Part shown: one piece after another, positions 24,828 to 62,392 of the stretch
Numbering within the stretch: the first letter of the stretch is position 1
How the letters are laid out: every line of letters starts with the position of its first letter
NCBI GenBank assembly: GCA_016192075.1
Contig: JACPUU010000013.1
Span: 1 to 64,000, forward strand
Length of the DNA: 64,000 nucleotides
DNA from: Bacteroidota bacterium
GTDB lineage: Bacteria > Bacteroidota > Bacteroidia > Flavobacteriales_D > Crocinitomicaceae
Reading direction: 5' to 3'
The notes under the pieces: generated by a model
Told to the model about the DNA's origin: nothing
The model's input: only the letters and a program-made list of their open reading frames with translations
Database searches by the model: none
Program-made: the position numbers and the translations under genes

Positions 24828-25415
24828 CTATTTTGACCGGCCCGCTAAAACCTGTTCCACGTCACTCAACTTTTTTCCTTTTGCTTTAAGCAACAGTAAA
24901 AAATGATACATCAGGTCTGCTGCTTCATTCAGGAATAATTCATCGTTCTGGTCTTTCGCTTCTATAACCAATTCAACTGCTTCTTCACCCACTTTTTGAG
25001 CTACTTTATTGATCCCTCTTTTGAATAATTTATTGGTATATGAATCCGGATCATCAGAATCTATACGGTCTGAAATGGTTTGCTCCAGCCTGTACAAAAA
25101 TCCTTTGCTGGTTTCTTCGTTAAAACAGGAAACGGTGCCGGTGTGACAAACAGGACCTTGTGGATCAACCCGGATCAAAACAGCATCCTGATCACAATCC
25201 AGCTTTATTTCAACCACCTTTAAAAAATTGCCCGAGCTTTCTCCTTTGGTCCACAAGCGGTTTTTAGAACGGCTGAAAAAAGTAACCCTGCCCTCCCCGC
25301 ATGTTTTTTCAAAAGCCGCTTCATTCATATAGCCAAGCATAAGTACCTGCGCGGTTATGTTATCCTGTATAATTGCCGGAACAAGGCCGTTTTCTTTTCT
25401 AAAATCTGGTTTCAT
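24828..25415 (-). CDS. hisI: Bifunctional phosphoribosyl-AMP cyclohydrolase / phosphoribosyl-ATP pyrophosphatase
   Basis: Fused HisI-HisE enzyme (steps 2 and 3 of histidine synthesis), 195 residues. The HisI part (about 1-105) has MLGYMNEAAF, RSKNRLWTKGESSGN and the metal-binding CDQDAVL...VCHTG cysteines. The HisE part (about 110-195) has KVGEEAVELVIEA and DLMYHFLLLL. This fusion is common in Bacteroidota. It is the last gene of the operon, 40 bases after hisF. Confidence 0.95.
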   Translation of the reverse strand: MKPDFRKENGLVPAIIQDNITAQVLMLGYMNEAAFEKTCGEGRVTFFSRSKNRLWTKGESSGNFLKVVEIKLDCDQDAVLIRVDPQGPVCHTGTVSCFNEETSKGFLYRLEQTISDRIDSDDPDSYTNKLFKRGINKVAQKVGEEAVELVIEAKDQNDELFLNEAADLMYHFLLLLKAKGKKLSDVEQVLAGRSK

Positions 25416-25455
25416 CTGTATAACTTAAGTTTTAAGGTTCATGAAAATTTTTAGT

Positions 25456-26211
25456 TCACCTGACCAAAATGTTTTGTGTTTTTAAATAGTTCTTTACGTC
25501 CTGAATGGATATTTCGCCGTAGTGAAAAATGCCTGCTGCCAGTCCACCGCTTGCTTTTGTCTGCTGAAAAACATCACGAAAGTGTTCTTTACTACCAGCC
25601 CCGCCTGACGCAATCACCGGGACACCAACTGCTTCACTTATTTGCCGGGTAATATCCAGGGCAAATCCACTCCGGGTTCCGTCATTGTTCATCGATGTCA
25701 GCAAAATTTCTCCGGCGCCCAGTTCAACCACTTTTTTTGCCCAATCAAGCGCCATTAAACCGGTTGGAATTTTACCGCCGCCTACAAAAACGCACCATTC
25801 ATTGTTTACATATTTTGTATCAATGGCCACCACTACACACTGATTTCCATACTGACCGGCAATCTCTGAAATCAGATACGGATTGCGAACTGCTGAAGAA
25901 TTTAAACTGACCTTATCAGCCCCTGATTGAATCACCGCACTGACATCTGCCAGCGAATTGATACCACCGCCAACAGTAAACGGAATGTTGATTTCTGCCG
26001 CTATTTTTCGAACCAGTGAAGCCCGTGTTTTTCGTTTTTCTTCAGTGGCAGCTATATCCAGAAAAACCAATTCATCGGCTCCCTCCTCTATGTATTTTTT
26101 AGCCAGTTCAACCGGATCACCGGCATCACGAAGATCACAGAAATTGACACCTTTGACGGTTCTTCCGTCTTTAATATCCAGGCAGGGAATGATTCTCTTT
26201 TTTATAGCCAT
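25456..26211 (-). CDS. hisF: Imidazole glycerol phosphate synthase, cyclase subunit
   Basis: TIM-barrel cyclase that uses ammonia from HisH to turn PRFAR into imidazole glycerol phosphate and AICAR. 251 residues. [19 protein letters not shown] holds the catalytic Asp12 (Asp11 in the usual numbering); VVAIDTKY holds the second Asp; phosphate loops VGGGI and ASGGAGS are present. Its start overlaps the end of hisA by 10 bases, showing coupled translation. Confidence 0.96.
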
Positions 26212-26915
26212 GGTGCAAGTTGTTTTAATGTAATGGCGCCTTCATAAATGGCTTTGCCAATAATGACGCCTTCGCATCCAAGTGCTTTTAGTTCAACCAG
26301 ATTCTGCAGGCAGGAAACGCCGCCGCTGGCAATGAGTTTAACCTTTACAGCATCCAGGACTTCACGGTACAACTTATCGGAGGTACCAGCCATCATGCCA
26401 TCTTTTGAAATATCGGTACAGATCACATACGAAATACCTTTTTGATTGTAATACCTGATAAAATCCACTACATCTGATTCCGATTTTTCAAGCCATCCCT
26501 GGGTCGCAATTTTCCGGTCCAGGCAATCAGCACCCAATATAATCCGGTCAGTTCCATACGTATCAATCCAGGACAAAAAGATGTCCGGCTTTTTCACGGC
26601 AATGCTCCCGCCGGTTACCTGGAAAGCACCGGATTCAAAGGCAACACGAATGTCTTCATCACTCTTTATTCCACCGCCAAAATCAATTTTAAGGTTGGTT
26701 GAAGAGGCTATTTTTTCTAACACGTTCTGGTTAATGATTTGGTTTGATCTGGCACCATCCAGGTCTACCAGGTGCAAATACTGAATGCCATTTGCTTCAA
26801 ATTCTTTTGCCAGTTCAAGCGGATCGTGATTGTAGATTTTTTGTGTTGCATAGTCTCCCTTTGTCAACCGGACACATTTACCACCGATTATATCTATTGC
26901 CGGAATGATTCTCAT
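26202..26915 (-). CDS. hisA: ProFAR isomerase (phosphoribosylformimino-AICAR-P isomerase)
   Basis: TIM-barrel isomerase, 237 residues. [17 protein letters not shown] carries the catalytic Asp8; [10 protein letters not shown] and ASGGVS are the phosphate-binding loops; [13 protein letters not shown] is the typical late block. It overlaps hisH by 4 bases (ATGA-type) upstream and hisF by 10 bases downstream. Confidence 0.96.
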
Positions 26916-27499
26916 TTTTGTAGTTTTAAAAAGTTCAGTAGTACCTGCTCTCCGGTGCTGCCTGATTTTTCAGGGTGGAACTGGGTAGCGTAAAAATTGT
27001 CCTTTTGCAGCGCTGCGCTGAAAGGCAAAATGTAATCACAGGTTGCAACGGTGTTTTCACAAATTTCAGCGTAGTAACTGTGAACAAAATAAAAATCATC
27101 CCGTTCTGTCACGTTCAGAAACAATTCACCGCGTGGATTCAGCAAATTATTCCAGCCCATTTGCGGAACAGTATCAACCGGGGGAAATTTTTTCACCAAC
27201 GTTTTAAAAATGCCCAGACAATTTACAGCTCCCTCTTCTGAAAAAGCACACATCAACTGCTGCCCCAGGCATATTCCAAAAACCGGTTGTTTCAGGGATA
27301 TAAGTACTTTATCCAGTCCTTTCTCACGCAGATATTTCATAGCTGAACCAGCCTCCCCCACTCCTGGAAAAATTACTTTTTCAGCATTCCGGATTTCAGT
27401 TTCATTATCTGTAATAACCGAATCGACACCTAATCTGTTCAATGCATTTTGTACTGAGATCACGTTTCCGGCATTGTATTTTAGTATTGCTATGCTCAT
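26912..27499 (-). CDS. hisH: Imidazole glycerol phosphate synthase, glutamine amidotransferase subunit
   Basis: Class I glutamine amidotransferase feeding ammonia to HisF, 195 residues. The nucleophile is Cys77 in [10 protein letters not shown]; the His-Glu pair lies in [10 protein letters not shown] near the C-terminus; PGVGEAGSA and the oxyanion region are normal. It is separated from hisB by the S23-type cassette, so its translation and mRNA level may depend on read-through of that insert. Confidence 0.95.
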
Positions 27500-27518
27500 G
27501 GTTTAGGGGGTATATGAG

Positions 27519-28140
27519 AGGTAAGGAGTAAGGGGGGTATGGGAGGATATAAAGTACAAGGACGTATTTTTAGTATACCCAGATTTTTTTGTTTGCTTCA
27601 TTCACCTGATTTTTTGCCTTGAAACAAATTTCTCATACCCATTCAATAATTTCCCAACCTCTTCTGCAGTGGCAATAAGTTCATTAAATACTGCTTCTTC
27701 AATATACATCAGATATTTCGACAGAATCAAATGATATTTTGTTTCCTCCAGCGATCCCTCAGATATTCCGATATACTTTAGTTTATTCGGAACCGTTTTC
27801 GTTTTATATCCCTCTGCCAAATTAGCCGCAACAGAACTGGATGATCTCCTCACCTGATTTGTCAAACCATAAACTTCCTCCTTTGGGAATTTCTTTGTAA
27901 CAGTATATACACTGAGCACCAATTGATGTGCTTTTTGCCATACAATCAAGTCTCTAAATGAATTTGTCTTTGTCATAATTTTTATCCTTTACTATCAAAA
28001 CTAAAATAATCTCAACAACTTATGTTTATTTTTTCCCCTCTTTCCTTATCCCTTCAATCTTACTCCTTATGTCTTACATCTTATCCCTTACTCCTTCAAT
28101 CTTACCCCTTATATCTTACTCCTTACTCCTCATCCCCTAT
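27519..28140. mobile_element. S23-type cassette with inverted purine/pyrimidine flanks inside the his operon
   Basis: The four-helix gene at 27602-27976 lies between AGGTAAGGAGTAAGGGGGG (27519-27537) and a pyrimidine-rich stretch (28031-28140) that contains inverted matches such as CTTACTCCTTACTCCT (28115-28130). The right side also holds a 42-base degenerate tandem repeat (TTCAATCTTAC at 28053 and 28095). In the transcript the two flanks can pair and place the gene in a loop. The arrangement resembles 23S rRNA intervening sequences that encode S23 proteins and are cut out by RNase III. Mobility is inferred only. Confidence 0.5.
27602..27976 (-). CDS. Four-helix bundle protein (S23 / rRNA intervening-sequence family)
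   Basis: A 124-residue helical protein with the family marks FRDLIVWQKAHQLVLSVY, FPKEEVYGLTNQVRRSSSSV, AANLAEGY and ISEGSLEETKYHLILS. Such proteins are encoded in 23S rRNA intervening sequences of spirochaetes and are widespread as stand-alone genes in Bacteroidota; their biochemical role is unknown. It interrupts hisB-hisH, reads the same way as the operon, and has its own -7 element TAGTTTTG (28003-27996) with a poorly placed TTG upstream. Flanking inverted repeats suggest it arrived as a unit. Confidence 0.88.
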   Translation of the reverse strand: MTKTNSFRDLIVWQKAHQLVLSVYTVTKKFPKEEVYGLTNQVRRSSSSVAANLAEGYKTKTVPNKLKYIGISEGSLEETKYHLILSKYLMYIEEAVFNELIATAEEVGKLLNGYEKFVSRQKIR

Positions 28141-28152
28141 CCCTATAAAATC

Positions 28153-29250
28153 TCACTCCCCCAAACTCCCCTTTGTACTTGGAATTGAAAAATTTTCAGT
28201 TTTACTCACCGCCATCTTCAGTGCTTTTGCAAATGCCTTAAAAACGGATTCAATTTTATGGTGTTCATTCTCTCCTTCAGCTTTTATGTTCAGATTACAT
28301 TTAGCGTTATCGGTGAATGACTTAAAAAAATGTTTGAACATTTCGGTTGGCATTTCTCCAATTTTTTCACGAGTAAATTTTGCGTCCCAAACGAACCAGG
28401 GTCTACCGCCAAAATCAACGGATACCTGAGCCAGGCACTCATCCATGGGCAGCAAAAAACCATACCGTTCAATGCCTTTTTTTGAACCCAATGCTTCTGA
28501 AAAAGCAGTACCCAATGCCAACGCTACATCCTCAATGGTGTGGTGTTCATCAACATGTAAATCTCCGCTGACTGAAATTTCCAAATCAACATTTCCGTGC
28601 CTGGCAATTTGTTCCAGCATGTGATCAAAAAAACCAAGTCCGGTTTGAATTACAGATTTTCCGGACCCGTCCAGGTTAAGGATTACCTCAATGTTTGTTT
28701 CCGACGTTTTTCTTTTCACCATCGACTTCCGTGGAACCGCTTTGAAGAACTGATAAATTTCATTCCAGCTGTCAGTCACCAAATCAGCCTGCACAGCTTT
28801 ATCTGATCCCATGTAAACTGATTTGCAGCCAAGATTTTCTGCCAGCAGGATGTCGGTAGAACGGTCACCTATTACGTACGAATTTGCCAGGTCATACGTT
28901 CCATACAGGTACTTGCCAAGCATACCGGTTCCGGGTTTTCGGGTCGGCAGGTTTTCTTCCGGAAAACTTTTGTCAATCAGAATTTCTGAAAAACAAATGC
29001 CTTCTTTTTCAAACGCCTTCACCATTTTATTGTGTGCCGGCCAGAATGACTCTTCGGGAAAAGAGGCTGTGCCTAAACCGTCCTGGTTGGTTACCATCAC
29101 CAATTCATATTCCAGTTCCATAGCAATTTTTGAAAGCCCTGAAAAAACGCCTGGATAAAACTCCAGTTTTTCAAGACTGTCTACCTGCATATCAACAGGT
29201 GGTTCAATAATCAGGGTTCCGTCACGGTCAATAAACAATACTTTTTTCAT
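28153..29250 (-). CDS. hisB: Bifunctional histidinol-phosphatase / imidazoleglycerol-phosphate dehydratase
   Basis: A 365-residue fusion. The N-terminal HAD phosphatase (about 1-165) begins [12 protein letters not shown] with nucleophile Asp8 and Asp10, and carries VTNQDGLG and VIGDRSTD. The C-terminal IGP dehydratase (about 175-365) has [30 protein letters not shown], and a second His cluster [16 protein letters not shown] that binds the paired Mn ions. It overlaps hisC by 4 bases. The pyrimidine flank of the S23 cassette abuts its stop codon. Confidence 0.96.
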
Positions 29251-30272
29251 GATTGATACATTTTAAGCGCATTTACTAATTGTACATTTTCTTCAGGCGA
29301 TCCAACGGTTATCCGGAGACAGTTTTTTACCACAGAATTGCGGTTACGTGCAACAATTTTCTGGCAAACCAGGTAATCATAAACGGCGTTGGCATCTGTT
29401 ACTTCTACCAAAATAAAATTGGCATCTGACGGATAAATCCGGATCACTGGTTTTATCAAACGCAACCCGGCTACAAGTTTCTGCTTCTCAGTTTTCAGCA
29501 GCTGAATTTGTGCCTTTGTCTGATCCGCATTTTCCAGTGCTTCTAATGCGGCCCGTTGATTCAGCCCACTCACATTATAGGGCGGCTTAACCCGGTTAAA
29601 CCAGCCAATCAGTTCAGGATCTGCGTACGCAACGCCAATTCGGGCAGCGGCCAATCCCCAGGCTTTACTAAATGTCTGCACTACTACCAGGTTCGGATAT
29701 TCCTTCAACCGGTTTATCCAGGAAGAATTTTCACTGAAATCAATGTATGCCTCATCGACCATTACAATTCCGTCAAAAGCTTTCAGAATTTGCTCTATTT
29801 CAAGCAATGAATTACCGGTTGGATTGTTGGGCGAACAACTAAAAATCAATTTAACAGATGCATCTTTGAGGTGTTTTTTTGTGGCTTCAACGTCAATCTG
29901 AAAATCAGAATTCAATGGAACGTGGATCAATTCAACCCCATTAATGGCTGCACTAACTTCGTACATGCCATAGGTAGGTGAAAAAGTCAGTGCCTTGTCT
30001 CTGCCCGGCTCACAAAAGATGCGGAAAGCCAGATCTATGATTTCATCACTCCCGTTGCCGATAAAAACAGAGTCAACTGAAACTGATTTTAATGCGGCCA
30101 GTTTTGCCTTTAATTTTTTCTGACCAGGATCAGGATACCTGTTTAATTCACCAAAGGGATTTTCATTGGCGTCCAGAAAAATGCCATCGGTACCACTGTA
30201 TTCATCACGCGCGCTGGAATACGATTTCAAATTCAAAACACCTGGTCGGACCAATTCTTTCAGTAATCTCAT
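29247..30272 (-). CDS. hisC: Histidinol-phosphate aminotransferase
   Basis: PLP enzyme converting imidazole acetol phosphate to histidinol phosphate. 341 residues with LDANENPFG near the start, [21 protein letters not shown], the [10 protein letters not shown] Asp/Tyr pair and the Schiff-base Lys203 in [15 protein letters not shown]. It overlaps both neighbours by 4 bases, so translation is coupled with hisD and hisB. Confidence 0.96.
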
Positions 30273-31555
30273 TTTTTTAATTTTTTAAGTCGGACTGTTA
30301 CTGCATTTTTGTGCGCAAAAAGTTGTTCGGCCTCAGCCATTTCTTCAATAGCGGGACCAATTTCCCGGATTCCCTTTTTTGAAATTTTCTGAAACGTGAT
30401 TTTACGCACATAGCTATCGAGTGAAACGCCGCTGTAATTTCGTGCATACCCATTGGTAGGCAATGTGTGGTTGGTTCCGCTGGCATAATCACCGGCACTT
30501 TCACAGGCGTATCGTCCAATAAAAACAGATCCTGCATTGATCACTTTTTTTGCAAGTTCAGTCGCATTTTCGGTTGCCAATATCAAATGTTCGGGCGCAT
30601 ACAAATTGCTAAACCCGATACATGCCGCATCTGTCTCCAGCAAAATTGCCAGGCTGTTTTTCAATGCCTGCGATGCAATGTTTTTCCGGGGCAATTTTTT
30701 CAATTGTTTTTTTAATTCAACCTGAACATCTGCTATTATTTTTTCAGAAGTGCTGACCAGGATAACCTGGCTGTCGGCACCGTGTTCAGCTTGTGACAAA
30801 AGATCTGCCGCTACAAATTCAGCATCGGCCTTTTTATCTGCAATAATGAGTACTTCACTTGGTCCGGCAGGCATGTCAATAGCCACTCCCCAATTTTGTG
30901 CGCGCTGTTTTGCAGCTGTCACGTACTGGTTACCCGGGCCAACAATTTTTGATACTGCCGGAACGGATTCTGTACCAAATGTGAGAGCACCAATAGCCTG
31001 AATGCCTCCAATTGAAAAAACAGCTGTTACGCCAACCAGGTTTGCTGCGTACAGAATTGCCGGGTTAATTTTTCCGTTTTTATCAGGCGGGGTGCAGAGC
31101 ATAATTTCACGGCAGCCAGCCAGTTTAGCAGGTATTGCCAGCATCAGAACGGTCGAAAAGAGCGGAGCCGTACCACCCGGAATATAAATTCCGACCCGCT
31201 CAATGGCGCGCGACTCACGCCAGCAAATCACCCCGGGCATCGTTTCAATTTTCTGAATTTTTTCTTTTTGCGAAAGGTGAAACCGGGTGATGTTTTGAAC
31301 CGCTACAGCCATTGCTTTTTTCAGTTTTGCTGGAACCAACCGTGATGCATCTTTCAATACACTGCTATCAATTTTCAGTAATTTTAATGCTACTCCGTCA
31401 AATTCTGAGGTATAATCAAACAGCGCCTTATCACCCTTTTTACGGATGTTTTCAAAAACCGCATCAACCATTTTATCAAGTTCAGCAGCAGATTTTGAAG
31501 GACGACGGGTCAGCAATTCCCACTCCTTTAACCCGGGATTTTTTACAATTTTCAT
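30269..31555 (-). CDS. hisD: Histidinol dehydrogenase
   Basis: Zn enzyme making the last two oxidations to histidine with NAD+. 428 residues. Hallmarks: PGGTAPLFSTVLMLAIPA, VPAVSKIVGPGNQYVTAAK, DMPAGPSEVLIIADK, DLLSQAEHGADSQVILVS (Zn/His region) and the C-terminal GTNHTLPTNGYARNYSGVS. It follows hisG by 17 bases. Confidence 0.96.
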   Translation of the reverse strand: MKIVKNPGLKEWELLTRRPSKSAAELDKMVDAVFENIRKKGDKALFDYTSEFDGVALKLLKIDSSVLKDASRLVPAKLKKAMAVAVQNITRFHLSQKEKIQKIETMPGVICWRESRAIERVGIYIPGGTAPLFSTVLMLAIPAKLAGCREIMLCTPPDKNGKINPAILYAANLVGVTAVFSIGGIQAIGALTFGTESVPAVSKIVGPGNQYVTAAKQRAQNWGVAIDMPAGPSEVLIIADKKADAEFVAADLLSQAEHGADSQVILVSTSEKIIADVQVELKKQLKKLPRKNIASQALKNSLAILLETDAACIGFSNLYAPEHLILATENATELAKKVINAGSVFIGRYACESAGDYASGTNHTLPTNGYARNYSGVSLDSYVRKITFQKISKKGIREIGPAIEEMAEAEQLFAHKNAVTVRLKKLKK

Positions 31556-31572: not shown

Positions 31573-32430
31573 TTAAAGAATCATTTTTTCAATTGGAACC
31601 ACCAGAATACCCTGGGCCCCTTTACTTTTTAACTGATCAATAATATCCCAGAACTGATCTTCTTTTACAACGGAGTGAATGCTGCTCCATCCTGGTTGAG
31701 CCAGCGGTAATATGGTTGGACTTTTCATTCCCGGCAGTATGGCAGAAATGGCAGCAACTGATTCATTGGGTGCATTGAGCAGAATGTATTTATTTTCAGC
31801 TGCGTTTCTTACAGCCCTTATTCTGAAAAGTAATTTTTCGAGAACTGCATTTTTTTCTGCTGCTAAAATCGGATTGGAAATTAAAACCGCTTCACTTTCT
31901 GTCACTACCTCAACTTCTTTCAAGCCATTCATCAACAACGTACTACCGGTGCTGACAATGTCAAAAATACCGTCTGCCAGGCCAATTCCGGGAGCTATTT
32001 CAACACTGCCACCAATCGTTTCAATCTCTACATTCAGGTTCTGCGATTTAAAAAACCGATCCAGAATTTTAGGATACGAGGTGGCTACTTTTTTTTGATT
32101 GAAATACGTTAATCCGTTATAGTATTCATCTTTGGGAATGGCCAGTGAAAGTTTGCAGCCGGCAAACCCAAGCTTTTCGATAACCTTTACCTGCTTGTCT
32201 TTTTCCAGCACTTCATTTTCACCCAAAATTCCAATATCGGCAACGCCCTGTTCAACGTATTGCGGAATGTCATCATCACGCAAAAACAACACCTCCAGTG
32301 GAAAGTTGAAAGCGGTTGTTTTTAATTTGCGGTCACCGTTTGACAGTTTGATGCCACATTCTTTTAAAAGTTCAAGCGATTTTTCGCTGAGACGTCCGCT
32401 TTTTTGAATGGCAATTTTTAGTTTACTCAC
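31573..32430 (-). CDS. hisG: ATP phosphoribosyltransferase, long form
   Basis: First committed enzyme of histidine synthesis, condensing ATP and PRPP; inhibited by histidine. At 285 residues it is the long form with a C-terminal ACT-like regulatory domain (VVKEDQFWDIIDQLKSKGA to VVPIEKMIL), so no HisZ partner is needed. LKIAIQKSGRLSEKS at the start and ADGIFDIVSTGSTLLMNGL (PRPP loop) are typical. I start at GTG 32430-32428. An ATG two bases upstream (32432-32430) is in another frame and is followed at once by TGA, forming a start-stop overlapping the real start. The 5' region is the attenuator described separately. Confidence 0.95.
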   Translation of the reverse strand: MSKLKIAIQKSGRLSEKSLELLKECGIKLSNGDRKLKTTAFNFPLEVLFLRDDDIPQYVEQGVADIGILGENEVLEKDKQVKVIEKLGFAGCKLSLAIPKDEYYNGLTYFNQKKVATSYPKILDRFFKSQNLNVEIETIGGSVEIAPGIGLADGIFDIVSTGSTLLMNGLKEVEVVTESEAVLISNPILAAEKNAVLEKLLFRIRAVRNAAENKYILLNAPNESVAAISAILPGMKSPTILPLAQPGWSSIHSVVKEDQFWDIIDQLKSKGAQGILVVPIEKMIL

Positions 32431-32472
32431 ATGTTTTAATTTGTGCCTGAGTAAACCAATAGGGATAGAAAC

Positions 32473-32505
32473 AAAAAACCCGTCTGATTTACTCAGACGG
32501 GTTTT
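32473..32505 (-). terminator. his attenuator: intrinsic terminator
   Basis: On the minus strand AAAACCCGTCTGA (32505-32493), loop GTAAA, TCAGACGGGTTTT (32487-32475) and a run of T to 32473: a 13-bp perfect stem about 45 bases upstream of hisG. Its 5' arm CGTCTGAGT (32499-32491) can instead pair with ACTCAGGCG (32549-32541) inside the leader peptide gene, nine pairs with one G-U, which would block the terminator. A third partner, TTTACTCAG near 32446-32454, lies downstream. Confidence 0.9.
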
Positions 32506-32528
32506 GAAATATTTTAATTATACATATA

Positions 32529-32588
32529 TCATTTCCGGCTCGCCTGAGTGCAAGGATGAAAATGATGATGTAATTGATTCAGATACAT
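32529..32588 (-). CDS. hisL: his operon leader peptide (His-rich)
   Basis: A 19-codon frame, M-Y-L-N-Q-L-H-H-H-F-H-P-C-T-Q-A-S-R-K then TGA, starting about 14 bases after the expected transcription start. Four of five successive codons (32570-32556) are His. It stands before the attenuator terminator and overlaps the strand (32549-32541) that pairs with the terminator's 5' arm. In the known enterobacterial mechanism, shortage of charged tRNA-His stalls the ribosome on these codons, the antiterminator forms and hisG is transcribed. The peptide itself is unlikely to have another role. Identification rests on composition and position, which together are persuasive. Confidence 0.88.
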   Translation of the reverse strand: MYLNQLHHHFHPCTQASRK

Positions 32589-32607
32589 TTTTGTTTCAAA
32601 GATGGCG

Positions 32608-32638
32608 CAAAGTTAAACTGAATTTTTGTTTTCGCAAA
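32608..32638 (-). promoter_or_regulatory. Promoter of the histidine operon
   Basis: Minus-strand TTTG (32638-32635), 19 bases, TAACTTTG (32615-32608): an exact fit to the Bacteroidota consensus. Transcription should start near 32602, giving a leader of about 170 bases that contains the leader peptide and the terminator. Confidence 0.85.
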
Positions 32639-33492: not shown

Positions 33493-36400
33493 ATGCAGTT
33501 AATTTATTGCACATTCATTCTGATTCTTTTATCAGGCGCATTTGCACCGGCCCTGCATGCAACACATGTTGTTGGTGGTAATATTGCCTATGAATGTACC
33601 GGTACTCCCAATGAGTTTCTGATAACATTAACAACTTACCGGGACTGTGGCGGATCAACGATGTCAACACCCAGTATTGACTTTACCAATTCGTGCGGAT
33701 TTGCACCATTTTCAGTAATCATGAACCTGGAAAGTTTTTCAGAGGTGTCACAGTTGTGCACGCCTGAGGTACCCAACAGTGAATGCTCAGGCGGTACGCT
33801 ACCCGGTGTGCAGGAATATATTTATACAGCAACGGTGATTCTGGATCCGGTGTGTGATGCCTGGACAATGAGCTATGAGGTTTGTAATAGAAACGCTTCA
33901 ACCAATCTGACCGGTGGAATCGGTAACTGTTTTTTTATTCAATCAACGCTGAATTCAGCCACCGCAGCCTGCAACAATTCCCCTATTATTACCAGTCAGC
34001 CTATTCCGTATGTATGCGCCAACGTGCCGGTTTCGTATGATTTTGGAACACTTGAGCCGGATGGAAACACACTGAATTTTACACTGGTGAGTGCACTTGG
34101 TTCAGGCGGAGTGCCCATTACCTACGTAGGTGGTTTTACACCTTCAGAACCAATTCCGGGTATTACCATTAACCCCACAACCGGACAATTGAATTTTACA
34201 CCTACCGTGCCCGGCAACTATGTAGTTACGGTTATGATTGAAGAATACGATGGATCCGGCAACCTGGTCGGAACCATGATGCATGATATTCAGTTTTTTG
34301 TTCAGACATGTCCGAACACACCACCCAATGCCCCGGTTACCATTACCAATTTTAACAATTTTGGTACAAATGCGGTGTTGAATGGAAATACTATTACCCT
34401 GTGCAGTGATGACCAGTTTTGTTTTGATGTCGTATTTAATGATCCCGATCTGGGAGACAGCCTTGTGCTGAGTTCAAATGTGGATTTATTTTTGCCCGGC
34501 GCAACCTTTGTTCAAACGGGAGCAGCCGGAAATCCGGCTACTGCAACCATCTGCTGGACCTTTCAGCCGGGCTATACCGGTTCTATCATTTCAGTAGTTG
34601 CCAACGATGAAGTTTGTCCGATACCGGGTATTGCTTCTTTCCCTATTGAGCTGGATGTTCCGCCGCCACTTAACCCGGGTACCAATGGTGTATTAACCAT
34701 TTGTGATGACGCGGGCGTGGTTAACTTATTTAATTCGCTGGGCGGATCACCTCAGAGCGGGGGCTCATGGTTTGATGAATCAAGCAACCCGGTTAACCCC
34801 ATTGCGGCAGCTGATACACTTCAGTCCGGCGTATATGATTATGTGCTGGGAGACATAACTTCCGGCTGTTTTGCTTCCGCTGAAGTAGCTGTTACCGTTA
34901 CCGGAGTTACGGCAAACTGGGTAGCTGACAGCTTGTCAAACGGAACCTGCGGTGGTGCCGCAGACGGAACCGCTTTTATCAACAACATTACCGGAACCGG
35001 CGGCCCGTTTGATATCGAATGGCTTTTGGGCGCACTGGTTATTGAATCAGAAAGTGTCACTTCCGGAGGCTCGTCTTACCACAATGATCTGGCAATAGGA
35101 AATTATACTGTTACTGTGACCAACCAGCAAGGGTGTAGCTGGACACAATCATTCTCAATCAGCGAACCACCGCCGTTAGCTCTTTCATTTATTTCAAATG
35201 AACCTACCTGCTATGCCTTTGCTGACGGTTCTGTTACCGCAAACCTGGTTAACGGTGTTTCACCGTATACGTTTGTTATGACAGATTCTGCAGGCAATGT
35301 TCTCAATGGTGGCGGAACCAATACCATTAATCAGCTCACAACCGGCTGGTATTACACCAATGTTGCAGATGCCAATGGCTGCTCTGTTACCGATTCGGTT
35401 TTTCTGGATGAACCGGGACTGCTGGCAATTGACCTGATTCTGAATCAGCCCGCCTGTTACGGCATCAATTCCGGAATTGCGTTTGTTGATACCGTATACA
35501 ATCACGGCGGTCCTTATAGCGCAGTGAGTTTTTTCTGGAACCCAAATCCCGCCGGAACGAATGGCGTAGGCCAGGATTCATGTACCCAATTGGGACCAGG
35601 TGATTATGCGCTGACCGTTAATGATCAGAATGGCTGTTCCAATGTATTTGATTTCAGTGTCTCTTATCCTGACTCATTGTATTTTATTCAACTTGGATAT
35701 GAGCCCGCCTATTGCAGATTATACAGTTATCAATCCGGCAACGGTGTTGTTTATGCCGCCGCCGCGGGAGGAACTCCTGATTATACGTATGAGTGGACTT
35801 ATCTACTAACCGGTGCAAACGTACCCAGCACCACCTGGGGAGGCAGAAATCCAGGTGATTACCAGATTGTAGCGACCGATGACAACGGCTGTACCATTAC
35901 TGAAATTATTACCGTTGATTCACTCAGCCCGATAGCTGATTTTGAAATGACAAGTCCGCAGTTTACGGCCAATTATTACGGAACAGCGCCGGTGGATGTT
36001 CACTTTGTCAATCAGTCACTCTATTTTGCAAATCCAAACGACCCAAATGCCGATACAACATTTTTCTGGAATTTCAATTCACCGTATTCGGGCTGGCTGC
36101 TTAGCACTGATGTCAATGAAACATTTGATTCCACCTATCTTTCAGGCGGTAACTATGAAATTTGCCTGGTGGCAATCAATAAAAACGGGTGCACGGATAC
36201 CTTGTGCAAACCCCTGGTGATATATGACCCGCTGGCCTTCATACCCATCAATGTTTTTACACCAGACGGTGACGGTATCAATGATGAATTTACCTTTATA
36301 CACTATGCCGATGCTGTTTCTGAATTTTCCTGCTTAATTGTTAACCGCTGGGGAATTCAGGTCTTTGAAATGACCAGCATAACGGACAAGTGGGACGGGA

Positions 36401-36519
36401 CAGACCGTAATGGTGATTTAGTAACCGACGGTGTTTATTTTTATGCATATTCCGGTATCGCCAATAATGGTGTTACCTTTGAAGGACAGGGTACAACACA
36501 AGTGATTAATACAAAATAA
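33493..36519 (+). CDS. Giant surface protein with gliding-motility-type C-terminal domain (copy 1)
   Basis: A 1008-residue secreted protein. The signal peptide ends near AFAPALHA (about 23). The N-terminal domain (ATHVVGGNIAYECTG, LTTYRDCGG) resembles a beta-rich module common at the start of CHU_C proteins. SprB-type repeats occupy about 465-800, a PKD-like block (FEMTSPQFTANYYGTAPVDVHF, DTTFFWNF) about 815-910, and the last 95 residues are the CHU_C/T9SS type B domain (VFTPDGDGINDEF, NRWGIQVFE, GTDRNGD, GVYFY). It is followed after 6 bases by copy 2, so both are likely co-transcribed. Confidence 0.86.
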   Translation: MQLIYCTFILILLSGAFAPALHATHVVGGNIAYECTGTPNEFLITLTTYRDCGGSTMSTPSIDFTNSCGFAPFSVIMNLESFSEVSQLCTPEVPNSECSGGTLPGVQEYIYTATVILDPVCDAWTMSYEVCNRNASTNLTGGIGNCFFIQSTLNSATAACNNSPIITSQPIPYVCANVPVSYDFGTLEPDGNTLNFTLVSALGSGGVPITYVGGFTPSEPIPGITINPTTGQLNFTPTVPGNYVVTVMIEEYDGSGNLVGTMMHDIQFFVQTCPNTPPNAPVTITNFNNFGTNAVLNGNTITLCSDDQFCFDVVFNDPDLGDSLVLSSNVDLFLPGATFVQTGAAGNPATATICWTFQPGYTGSIISVVANDEVCPIPGIASFPIELDVPPPLNPGTNGVLTICDDAGVVNLFNSLGGSPQSGGSWFDESSNPVNPIAAADTLQSGVYDYVLGDITSGCFASAEVAVTVTGVTANWVADSLSNGTCGGAADGTAFINNITGTGGPFDIEWLLGALVIESESVTSGGSSYHNDLAIGNYTVTVTNQQGCSWTQSFSISEPPPLALSFISNEPTCYAFADGSVTANLVNGVSPYTFVMTDSAGNVLNGGGTNTINQLTTGWYYTNVADANGCSVTDSVFLDEPGLLAIDLILNQPACYGINSGIAFVDTVYNHGGPYSAVSFFWNPNPAGTNGVGQDSCTQLGPGDYALTVNDQNGCSNVFDFSVSYPDSLYFIQLGYEPAYCRLYSYQSGNGVVYAAAAGGTPDYTYEWTYLLTGANVPSTTWGGRNPGDYQIVATDDNGCTITEIITVDSLSPIADFEMTSPQFTANYYGTAPVDVHFVNQSLYFANPNDPNADTTFFWNFNSPYSGWLLSTDVNETFDSTYLSGGNYEICLVAINKNGCTDTLCKPLVIYDPLAFIPINVFTPDGDGINDEFTFIHYADAVSEFSCLIVNRWGIQVFEMTSITDKWDGTDRNGDLVTDGVYFYAYSGIANNGVTFEGQGTTQVINTK

Positions 36520-36525
36520 GACGTT

Positions 36526-39500
36526 ATGTTCAGATCAAATTCAATGTCAATGATAGTGGTTTTGATGGCCGGATTTTTACCGGTCAGTTCATTGGCACAA
36601 TTAAACGCGAACGGCGGTTACCTGATGGGTAACCAGGTTGAAGTGGGAATTCACAATCACGGGCATGAAGGTGCCCCTGATATACCCGGTTCACACAGCC
36701 GCACAAATTCATCTACCGATGTGTATTTTGGATTTGTTGCCAACCCGCAAAACGATGGTTGGGTTGATTATGACGGTGACTTTTTTACACCCGGATCACC
36801 TGAAAATGGTTTTGGACTTGAAATTAACGGGGTCAACTACAGCAACAATGGCGTTGATGCCATCTTTTTTTCCGGTACGCAATATGAAATTCCGGGTGCA
36901 CTCAGCAACTATTCTCAGATTGGTGACTGTATAAGTGTACAATGGGACGGATCAATTAATAACGTTGCCCTCAAAATTGTCTATTCACTCAATATTACCC
37001 AATTGTATTACACCACGGAGGTAACCATTACCAACAATACCGGTGCTGCCTTAAATGATGTGTACTATTACCGTAACCTGGATCCGGACAACAACGAGGA
37101 AATTAATTTTGACTACACTACCAATAATACCATTGTCTCTCAACCTACCCCGGGCTGTGAAAAGGCATTGGTTTCAGCAACACAAAGCACCCCCTGGAAT
37201 TCTTACATCGGGTTAGCCGCTATAGGACCAAATTTCAGAGTTAGTTACGGTGGTTTTTCAAACCGTGATGCATCGGATATCTGGAACGGGCTGGCTGGAC
37301 TTACCGGAACCGTAGGCGCATCTATGTTTGACGACATTGCCATTTCACTGGCTTACAAAATCAATACCCTGGCAGCAGGTGACAGCGAAACATTTCAATT
37401 CAGTGTTATTCTTGATCAGAATCAGATAGACGCCGCTTTGGCAAGTCTTTACTATTTTGATTTTACAGGAGGTTCAGGTTCACCGGCAACATTCTGTGAA
37501 CCAGTAGTAGATACTGTTTTCACCTGCGCAGGAGTACCGGCAACTATTTCAGTAGAGGGTCCCAATACCGGAGATTATACCTGGGCCTGGACACCACCTG
37601 CTGACTTAAGTACAACGGTAGGAACGACCACGCAGGCGTCTCCAAATGGTACAACCACATACACCGTAACAGGTAGCCCAATCGGTACGTGTATCACCGG
37701 TCAGATTATTAAAAACATTGTGGTGGATCTGACTGCCGGACCAGAAATTGAAATCATTGATCCGGGGCCACAGTGCGGTTCTTTTGACCTGACAACATTA
37801 GTTGTAAATGACATTAACAATACACCTGGAACCGTTACTGATTTCTTTGCGGTTATACCAGACAGTGCTGATCAGACAGCGGGAACCTGGCCTTCTACAA
37901 CCATTTCGCCGGGTGATGTGGTTTATGTGGTTATTGCAGATCCGGTTGGAGGTTGTTTTGCCTACCAACAAGTGATTATTGACTTTGGCGGATCAGGTGC
38001 TGCCGGACAGGATTCTACGGTAAGTATGTGCAACATAGACGGCACCATACTCGATCTGGATGACTATTTATCCGGAGTGGCTGCAGTTGGTACGTGGTCA
38101 GAAACAACCATCCCTGCATCCGGACAATTTAATACATCAACCGCTGTGCTGAACGGAAACGGACTGGCCGGCACCTATACGTTTGAATACCTGGTAGCCG
38201 GAGTTGCCGGTTGTCCGGATGACATTTCAAACTTTACCGTTAATCTTTTTGCGCAGCCGGTTGCAGACTTTGAATACATTGTGAACGGCCAGTCTTCAGC
38301 TGACGGACTAACAAGTGCATGTATCTCTAACCCAATTACGTTTGACAATAATTCCATTGCTGGCGGCGGCGGTGCTACCATTACAGATAATACCTGGGAT
38401 TACGGAAATACGTTTGGATCTACAACCACCAATCCAACGTATCAGTATCCGGCCACCGGCACTTATGTAATTGAACTGACGGTTGAAACCAACCAGGGTT
38501 GTACAGATACCTATTCAATGCCAATTACCATCACAACCAGTCCTACCATGGCACTCAACATTGGTGAACCATCGTGTTACGGATTTACAGACGGATCACT
38601 TACCGTAAATACAGCCGGCGGTGGACCATACACCTATATTATCACCAACGCAGCCGGAACACAGATCAATATGGCTAATACCAATACCGTCAATAACATT
38701 GGAAGCGGCTGGTATTACCTGAATGTCGATGACGGAAGCGGATGCGCAGGCATTGACTCTGTTTTCATTCCACAGCCGGATGCACTTGATGTTGATTTGA
38801 ATGTCACGCAGCCACTTTGTTACGGATTCAATACCGGACTGGCTGTTGCTGATACCGTTTTCAATTACACCGGCAATTACAACCAAATAAGTTATTTCTG
38901 GAATCCAAACCCTAATGGAATTAACGGACTTGGTGAAGACTCGTGTGTTCAACTTTCACCTGGGTCGTATGCGCTGACAATCAACGACGCAAACGGTTGC
39001 TCAAAAGTATTTGACTTTACCATTGCTTACCCTGATTCGCTTTATTTTGTGGAACTGGGTGCTGATCCGGCAAGCTGCCGTTTATTTGATTATCAGACAG
39101 GGCATGGTGTTGTTTTTGCAGCAGCATCGGGTGACAATCCAAATTATTCATACACCTGGACAAACCTTACTACCGGGGCCACAACCAACAATACTACCTG
39201 GGGTGGTCTGAATCCTGGTGATTACCAGATTCTGGTTGTAGATACAAAAGGCTGTACCCTCACTGCGGTTGTAACGGTAGAAGAATTTTCACCAATTGCA
39301 GACTTTGAAATGACCTCACCGCAGTTTACATCTGATTATTTTGGTACTGCGGTTGTAGATGTTCATTTTGTAAACCAGTCATCTTATTTTGCAAACCCGA
39401 ATGACCCCAATGCTGATACCACTTTCTTCTGGTATTTTGGATTTGAAGGTGACCCTTGGCTGATCAGTCATGATTTGTATGAAACCTTTGACCGCACCTA

Positions 39501-39882
39501 TATCGAAGGCGGAACCTACGATGTTTGCCTGGTGGCCATCAATAACAATGGTTGTTCAGACACCTTATGTAAACCGCTGGTAATTTATAACCCGCTTGCA
39601 TTTACACCGGTAAACGTGTTTACGCCAGATGGTGATGGTGCCAATGACTTGTTCAGTTTTGTAGAATATGCTGAGGGAGTTAAAGAATTCAGCTGCGTCA
39701 TTGTAAATCGCTGGGGCATAAAAATACATGAAATGACTGCAGTAACAGATACGTGGGACGGAACAGATATGAATGGCGATAAGTGCCACGACGGTGTTTA
39801 TTTTTATACCTATGAGGGCACTGCTGAAAACGGAGCCCTGTTTAAAGGACAAGGCAGCCTTGAAATTTTGCACAGTAAATAG
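36526..39882 (+). CDS. Giant surface protein with gliding-motility-type C-terminal domain (copy 2)
   Basis: A 1118-residue T9SS type B cargo protein with a signal peptide (about 25 residues, ending SSLAQ). The N-terminal 300 residues differ from copy 1 and look like a beta-sandwich (NGGYLMGNQVEVGIHNHGHEG). Central Ig-like segments, a PKD domain (TWDYGNTFGSTTTNPTYQYP) and SprB-like repeats lead into a final half nearly shared with copy 3: FEMTSPQFTSDYFGTAVVDV, VFTPDGDGANDLF, NRWGIKIHEM. A terminator follows at 39883. Confidence 0.87.
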   Translation: MFRSNSMSMIVVLMAGFLPVSSLAQLNANGGYLMGNQVEVGIHNHGHEGAPDIPGSHSRTNSSTDVYFGFVANPQNDGWVDYDGDFFTPGSPENGFGLEINGVNYSNNGVDAIFFSGTQYEIPGALSNYSQIGDCISVQWDGSINNVALKIVYSLNITQLYYTTEVTITNNTGAALNDVYYYRNLDPDNNEEINFDYTTNNTIVSQPTPGCEKALVSATQSTPWNSYIGLAAIGPNFRVSYGGFSNRDASDIWNGLAGLTGTVGASMFDDIAISLAYKINTLAAGDSETFQFSVILDQNQIDAALASLYYFDFTGGSGSPATFCEPVVDTVFTCAGVPATISVEGPNTGDYTWAWTPPADLSTTVGTTTQASPNGTTTYTVTGSPIGTCITGQIIKNIVVDLTAGPEIEIIDPGPQCGSFDLTTLVVNDINNTPGTVTDFFAVIPDSADQTAGTWPSTTISPGDVVYVVIADPVGGCFAYQQVIIDFGGSGAAGQDSTVSMCNIDGTILDLDDYLSGVAAVGTWSETTIPASGQFNTSTAVLNGNGLAGTYTFEYLVAGVAGCPDDISNFTVNLFAQPVADFEYIVNGQSSADGLTSACISNPITFDNNSIAGGGGATITDNTWDYGNTFGSTTTNPTYQYPATGTYVIELTVETNQGCTDTYSMPITITTSPTMALNIGEPSCYGFTDGSLTVNTAGGGPYTYIITNAAGTQINMANTNTVNNIGSGWYYLNVDDGSGCAGIDSVFIPQPDALDVDLNVTQPLCYGFNTGLAVADTVFNYTGNYNQISYFWNPNPNGINGLGEDSCVQLSPGSYALTINDANGCSKVFDFTIAYPDSLYFVELGADPASCRLFDYQTGHGVVFAAASGDNPNYSYTWTNLTTGATTNNTTWGGLNPGDYQILVVDTKGCTLTAVVTVEEFSPIADFEMTSPQFTSDYFGTAVVDVHFVNQSSYFANPNDPNADTTFFWYFGFEGDPWLISHDLYETFDRTYIEGGTYDVCLVAINNNGCSDTLCKPLVIYNPLAFTPVNVFTPDGDGANDLFSFVEYAEGVKEFSCVIVNRWGIKIHEMTAVTDTWDGTDMNGDKCHDGVYFYTYEGTAENGALFKGQGSLEILHSK

Positions 39883-62255: not shown

Positions 62256-62263
62256 GAAAAAAA

Positions 62264-62362
62264 GTGGGTAAGCCCCCTGTATCGCACCGCTACAACCGTT
62301 TACCCTTGCTGTGTTCCCACCCTGGGGGATTCAACAGGAGCTGGTCGTACAGGACTTACCCG
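62264..62362 (-). ncRNA. ffs: Small signal recognition particle RNA (4.5S type)
   Basis: The minus strand gives a hairpin RNA of about 98 bases. The ends pair (GGGTAAG...CCTGT with ACAGG...CTTACCC). The apex has the SRP signature: CCCCAGG, stem GTG, tetraloop GGAA (62317-62314), CAC, then AGCAAGG. This is the Ffh-binding CAGG/AGCA internal-loop pattern of bacterial 4.5S RNA. A T run (from 62263) right after the 3' strand serves as terminator. It would form the SRP with Ffh for co-translational membrane targeting. The ends are estimated to within a few bases. Confidence 0.93.
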
Positions 62363-62365
62363 GTG

Positions 62366-62392
62366 CAAAAATAGGAAAAGGATTATTACCAA
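62366..62392 (-). promoter_or_regulatory. Promoter of the SRP RNA gene
   Basis: Minus-strand TTG (62392-62390), 16 bases, TATTTTTG (62373-62366). The -7 box is an exact match; the spacer is short. Expected start near 62360 agrees with the RNA's 5' end. Confidence 0.7.

Follow-up and report, generated by a model that had tools for sequence, protein, structure and literature searches.

The question raised by this locus is whether the histidine operon of a Crocinitomicaceae genome is preceded by a complete translation-dependent attenuator of the enterobacterial hisL kind, as the original prediction had it, and whether such an attenuator is all that the region upstream of hisG contains. The analyzed stretch (hereafter, the window) comprises 64,000 nucleotides. 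On its minus strand, a promoter, a 19-codon His leader, a strand A, a terminator arm B and the terminator itself all lie upstream of an intact his operon. Feature coordinates are presented in Table 1, in which the names hisC, hisH, hisA and hisF are based on Pfam family and gene order.

Table 1. Features of the window discussed in the text.
Feature	Position	Strand	Basis
Bacteroidota-type promoter: TTTG (32638-32635), 19 nt, TAACTTTG (32615-32608)	32608..32638	-	sequence
Leader peptide ORF, MYLNQLHHHFHPCTQASRK-stop; His codons at 32570-32562 and 32558-32556	32529..32588	-	sequence
Protector hairpin: His-codon strand with GGAAATGAT 3' of A; encloses A without a ribosome	32521..32572	-	predicted fold
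Strand A, antiterminator 5' strand ACTCAGGCG, within leader ORF	32541..32549	-	9 pairs with 32499-32491
Intrinsic terminator B:C, 13 pairs (32505-32475), T tract to 32473	32473..32505	-	sequence prediction
Strand B, distal part of terminator 5' arm plus loop GTCTGAGTAAATC, common to A, C and D	32486..32498	-	sequence, loci comparison
Strand D GGTTTACTCAGGC (pairs reach 32459), complementary to B and to the hisG start	32445..32457	-	folds, loci comparison
Strand E, start region of hisG GTGAGTAAACTAA, resembling B	32418..32430	-	12 pairs with D, predicted fold
hisG, GTG start, first gene of the operon	31573..32430	-	Pfam HisG and HisG_C
hisD, hisC, hisB (two domains), IVP-family ORF, hisH, hisA, hisF, hisIE (remainder of the operon)	24828..31555	-	gene order and Pfam
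Bacteroidales small SRP RNA	62262-62368	-	Rfam, 113.5 bits

Sampled loci

HisG-bearing genomes were sampled from the window's family (80 of 200 with a match), its order (74 of 245) and its class (110 of 247), to which 80 named loci were added. Ten full-length HisG matches of the family (eight from one genus) and some contig-end fragments were excluded. From 272 loci, one with too short an upstream region and 17 duplicates were removed, which left 254 non-redundant hisG upstream regions. A leader ORF (at least three His per six residues) is present in 234 of these, a terminator in 201, and both in 194. The terminator arm is comparable in 123 of the 194; the other 71 have an arm of another type and were not scored ungapped. 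The swap test for A:B was applied to 193 loci, one of the 194 being excluded by the test's rules, and that for B:D to 151 loci with a gap of at least 30 nt, regardless of arm type.

The attenuator core

The consensus promoter proposed for 32638-32608 was recovered there as TTTG-N19-TAACTTTG, which we take to be the Bacteroidota consensus form. It was missed by a scan for E. coli-type promoters, as would be expected, since the Bacteroidota consensus is a different one. In 158 of 193 loci, where shuffles would give 13.1, the 60 nt ahead of the leader start contain the motif TAnnTTTG, at a median distance of 17 nt.

The 19-codon His leader peptide (32588-32529) and the 13-bp terminator with its T tract (32505-32473) were likewise found as predicted, as was the alternative pairing of ACTCAGGCG (32549-32541) with CGTCTGAGT (32499-32491), which consists of nine pairs including one G.U. 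By a strict rule, a His-rich leader ORF occurs in 226 of the 254 hisG upstream regions and in none of 254 dinucleotide shuffles. At 175 of 193 loci (110 of 124 when only loci with a unique B are considered), strand A fits the B of its own locus better than, on average, the B of other loci. Both the His codons and the alternative pairing are kept in relatives; their loss there had been named in the original prediction as grounds for refutation. Support for the protector hairpin across loci is moderate (median z of -1.85; z < -2 in 42%).

Nascent RNA folded with and without a ribosome mask behaves as expected of an attenuator. When a ribosome occupies the His codons, the fold of lowest energy for 3' ends 32492-32480 is A:B; a ribosome that covers A lets the terminator form instead; and without a ribosome, the protector hairpin encloses A after C has been made. 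From the completion of C onwards, the terminator has the lowest energy in the stalled case as well, and hence antitermination must be kinetic.

The features of a hisL-type attenuator are thus present, i.e., a leader ORF with a run of His codons, a predicted terminator before hisG and a predicted antiterminator A:B that excludes it, and the window element almost certainly contains a ribosome-mediated attenuator core of this type. By analogy with the known enterobacterial mechanism, from which a response to charged tRNA-His is carried over, the attenuator would respond to tRNA-His. Given ample charged tRNA-His, ribosomes would reach the stop codon and cover A, so that B:C would form and transcription would end; a ribosome stalled at the His codons would let A:B form, and RNA polymerase would continue. 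The hisL-type reading is therefore supported by conservation and by the nascent folds, yet it is incomplete, since it omitted the strand D described below.

Two groups of loci present other arrangements. Nine loci with GTG or TTG hisG starts (L256-L263, L265) have His-rich leader ORFs upstream, while the finder returned no intrinsic terminator for them, hinting at purely translational control or another type of termination. At six loci (L213, L214, L223, L232, L242, L255), long candidate leaders upstream of hisG end in HHFHHSS or similar; an intrinsic terminator was not found in five of the six.

A second partner for strand B

Between the terminator and hisG lies a further strand, D, which is complementary to B and ends 14 nt upstream of the window's start codon. 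At the stricter threshold, D is found at 94 of the 123 comparable-arm loci, against 1.5 expected from shuffles, and such counts are too low because the terminator finder failed on five loci that bear D by eye (L003, L027, L046, L057, L060). A loose threshold of 14 gives 103 loci with D, against 10.3 expected by chance, and three of these calls look false (L087, L099, L100). The 3' end of D falls at a median of 15 nt before the start codon (14-20 nt for the central 80% of the 103). Since a bacterial ribosome placed on the start codon extends upstream by roughly this distance, a B:D helix would just leave it room.

In the 79 unique pairs, the pairing of B with D is 0.92 in register, compared with 0.23-0.41 when slid by one to three bases, a control that favors D because D was chosen for its pairing. 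The swap test is free of this selection bias, and in it D matches the B of its own locus better than, on average, the B of other loci at 131 of 151 loci (81 of 100 where the B core is unique). Over 88 unique B/D pairs, all four Watson-Crick types occur in columns 7, 9 and 10 and three types in columns 6 and 8. B and D change together, mostly over several bases, in L029, L168, L179, L086, L211 and L225. On the HisG tree, columns 2-10 summed give about 10.9 independent pairs that change the same way, 0.2 that change the other way and 5.9 without difference, the columns being non-independent; no single B:D column reaches significance in these underpowered tests, and columns 11 and 12 are mixed (1.2 and 1.6 same-way, 0.4 and 0.6 other-way). 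Taken as comparative evidence, these results make it very likely that B:D is an RNA pairing under selection.

The inverted repeats formed by B and D, about 30 nt apart, could also be pictured as a DNA operator for a repressor protein. Such an operator is scarcely conceivable here, as the repeat sequence varies widely while its complementarity is kept, and it was rejected on the co-change of B and D. A kissing or pseudoknot contact between D and an intact terminator was rejected as well: in the loci with terminator loops of 3 nt (L029, L179-L182), B:D is kept, with about 11-13 complementary bases retained. Given that B:D excludes the terminator hairpin and is kept with these loops, it is probably made in RNA that never passed through the hairpin, i.e., after A:B.

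Distribution of strand D

The occurrence of B:D depends on the room between terminator and start codon. A B:D z below -3 is obtained in 74% of 105 loci with a gap of 40-60 nt, in 54% of 24 with 60-100 nt and in 31% of 16 with 30-40 nt, but in none of 43 loci with shorter gaps (below 30 nt) and none of six with longer ones (above 100 nt). Considering the named loci with leader and terminator, at the loose threshold and with imperfect D-minus labels (as also in the tree comparisons), D was called in 14 of 15 Flavobacteriales, 10 of 23 Bacteroidales and both Chitinophagales, and in neither the single Cytophagales nor the single Calditrichales locus. Many Bacteroidia are without D.

A sample of 35 trpE loci was used for comparison, 14 of which have a Trp leader and a terminator by a set rule; 13 of these were scored, since one gap (8 nt) was too short, and some gaps are rough because the trpE start was taken as the first ATG of the open frame. 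No B:D z below -3 was obtained in the 13, and D was therefore rejected as a general trait of leader-peptide attenuators. Order-level searches for trpE and ilvD returned few true genes near this genome. In eight trpE loci (L341, L342, L344, L356, L357, L361-L363), leaders with WWW and a terminator are present upstream of trpE and strand D is absent; ribosome-sensing trp attenuators are probably also present in this class.

This patchy occurrence, both in Bacteroidia and in the scored trp attenuators, is what would be expected if the locus were a plain hisL-type attenuator, whose core alone explains regulation, with D a functionless relic of an A/B duplication beside a conserved hisG start. That reading is improbable, however, in view of the co-change of B and D in many lineages with three to four Watson-Crick types in columns 6-10, the outcome of the register and swap controls, and the narrow range of distances from D to the start codon.

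Predicted pairing of D with the hisG start

In the window, a D:E hairpin of 12 pairs that includes the GTG start is predicted. Across loci, a contiguous D:E run of at least seven pairs is found in 48 of the 79 unique D pairs, as opposed to 1, 12 and 7 of 79 in three controls. A hisG start of the form ATGAGY (or GTGAGY), which resembles B, occurs at 79 of the 103 D loci and at 6 of the 91 others, a difference that is confounded with descent. The synonymous choice of the Leu4 codon tracks D (odds ratio of 13.5, p = 8.5e-6, 69 loci, with 8 loci with other D bases excluded), compared with an odds ratio of 2.4 (p = 0.12) for the control codon Leu14. On the tree, covariation of Leu4 with D is not significant (1.4 same-way and 0.1 other-way of five pairs). 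Several lineages keep B:D and lose D:E (L029, L168, L179), which indicates that B:D is the basic pairing, to which D:E is frequently, yet not universally, added. From these comparisons, D:E appears supported, but less strongly than the leader, A:B and B:D.

Positions 32432-32427 (minus strand) read ATG followed immediately by TGA, overlapping the GTG with which hisG begins, where most D-bearing relatives read ATGAGT. Compared with these, the present genome apparently has two additional bases and, at its hisG start, a minimal start-stop ORF.

Retention of B:D in the three lineages without D:E would also fit a role in the stability or processing of read-through mRNA, in which a 13-pair helix about 15 nt before the start would replace the terminator hairpin that many loci without D have close to the start. 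The 71 other-arm loci are in line with this, having their terminator at a median of 29 nt from the start (10th-90th percentile 16-83). Such a role is nevertheless rather unlikely to be the explanation, since the excess of B-like hisG starts at D loci would be left unaccounted for.

A released, terminated leader might instead act in trans, its B pairing with D on the his mRNA and repressing it (compare attenuator-derived small RNAs such as rnTrpL). B:D complementarity would serve equally well in trans, and D is near the start codon. However, the B of a released leader is locked in the terminator, with loops down to 3 nt, and where D:E exists, binding D would activate, which is the wrong sign; action in trans is hence very improbable. 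In the present genome, an 11-base D pattern has six exact matches, two of them at this locus, compared with eight for a control pattern. Other D-like sites were rejected as trans targets, the four remaining matches lying within long ORFs (459-793 aa).

A proposed two-level switch

D is transcribed after the terminator. It can thus have no effect on termination there and matters only in read-through RNA. When the window RNA was grown just past D (3' end 32443) with A covered, the best fold contains B:D, with 15 pairs; when E is included, again with A covered, the best fold is B:C plus D:E. The cost of opening the hisG start, in medians of 94 loci, is 7.2 kcal/mol with B:C fixed and 1.4 kcal/mol with B:D fixed. 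In 83 of the 94, B:C raises it above the B:D value by over 1 kcal; the reverse, by such a margin, is seen at no locus. For the 46 loci of the other arm type with a terminator at most 40 nt from the start, the opening cost is 1.3. Taken together, the costs under the two helices and the open starts of the other-arm loci lead to the proposed switch, in which terminator plus D:E is the off state and B:D the on state. The 17 D loci with another hisG start show a small difference (2.8 versus 1.4, exceeding 1 kcal in 10 of 17), which implies D:E cannot be the whole reason for D.

Direct-path barriers, again in medians of 94 loci, are 5.2 kcal/mol from A:B to B:D, 10.6 from A:B to B:C and 18.4 from B:D to B:C, those that involve C being overstated because the estimate forbids crossing pairs. 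The barrier from A:B to B:D is below that from A:B to B:C in 88 of the 94. The ensemble is more stable with B:C fixed than with B:D fixed (medians of -31.7 versus -26.1 kcal/mol), and the most stable state of the full-length window RNA combines the terminator with D:E; the on state must therefore be kinetic.

In the proposed switch, D would pair with B after read-through, including the loop bases that A leaves free, thereby displacing A and leaving the hisG start open. In RNA that leaks through with B already in B:C, D would pair with the hisG start and block it. A single switch would in this way set both transcription and translation, and B:D would keep the on decision after the ribosome resumes. 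Overall, we lean towards a translation-dependent his attenuator with a second, downstream switch strand D. A translational role of D, as judged from modelled opening costs, seems to us evenly poised. The complete latch, in which a brief A:B would be followed by D taking B, keeping the start open and closing the start of leak-through RNA, and which would be ancient in Bacteroidia, is put forward tentatively, its effect on translation being what we infer from the folds.

Comparison with known systems

The element resembles the enterobacterial hisL (Rfam RF00514, His_leader) in its leader peptide with His codons, its antiterminator, its terminator and its place upstream of hisG. It differs in having a Bacteroidota promoter and the added strand D, which pairs with B and the hisG start. 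In a lax Rfam scan, RF00514 was the top match, with 32.9 bits and an E-value of 0.00073, which is weak support given that an unrelated small-RNA family follows with 32.7 bits. The match lies below the gathering score of RF00514, 49 bits. A T-box or other riboswitch was not found, no Rfam family matching the leader at its gathering score; the one match listed for the window is the SRP RNA elsewhere.

The Bacteroid-trp motif (RF01692), which is reportedly linked to trp and a leader peptide, is likewise a candidate for RNA-based regulation of an amino-acid operon in Bacteroidetes; the operon is another one, and the window contains no match to it at the gathering score. The accessible part of PMC2864571 names it in a table.

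Two systems of Bacillus subtilis are alike in coupling termination to access to the start, as far as the accessible texts describe them. In tlrB, a stalled leader ribosome relieves termination and also a structure that hides the ribosome-binding site in read-through RNA (PMC6851288), so that both levels are relieved by a stall, as is proposed here. It differs in that the signal is tylosin, the ribosome is what blocks the two structures, and an overlapping antiterminator was not found in it (PMC6851288), whereas in the present locus one strand would pass between partners. In trpE, a single signal governs termination and, in a separate step, whether the start region is hidden, the sensor being the protein TRAP in place of the ribosome and the structures being different ones (PMC12288461).

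Within Bacteroidota, the accessible text on Flavobacterium psychrophilum reports clues to leader peptides ahead of amino-acid operons and, as another finding, a conserved structured element that precedes hisG and has no Rfam hit (PMC9723704). This Flavobacteriaceae element is most likely the same as the one studied here, and the accessible text describes it without strands, without D and without a mechanism for hisG. Small ORFs reminiscent of leader peptides are mentioned for Bacteroides thetaiotaomicron in the part of PMC7366714 that is accessible. The available portion of a Bacteroidota-wide study of his genes uses "attenuation" once, for enterobacteria (PMC8305728), and that of a survey of histidine regulation in Gram-positives has candidates in Firmicutes, the word Bacteroid being absent from it (PMC9413887). 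Hence, the remark in the original prediction that such leaders are little studied outside Proteobacteria is broadly fair, judging by these accessible texts, with the Flavobacterium psychrophilum clues (PMC9723704) and the Firmicutes candidates (PMC9413887) as exceptions. A search of open-licence papers returned no description of strand D. The core thus belongs to a known type, of which the literature on Flavobacteriaceae already contains hints, and strand D is an addition to it.

These results suggest ribosome-sensing his attenuation is common across Bacteroidia, a group in which we found hardly any description of it, and a conserved extra strand may couple the same decision to translation. 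If the latch is true, one RNA strand would carry the decision past the ribosome stall into later translation. A two-level RNA switch could be modelled on this natural system, and the exact bases for compensatory mutants are defined.

Other features of the window

Within the his operon, hisB and hisH are separated by an ORF (27602-27976, minus strand) that belongs to the 23S rRNA intervening-sequence protein family (Pfam PF05635). On the plus strand, 33493-39882 holds a tandem pair of large ORFs (1008 and 1118 aa) that are similar by eye, and whose end presumably resembles gliding-motility or type IX sorting domains.
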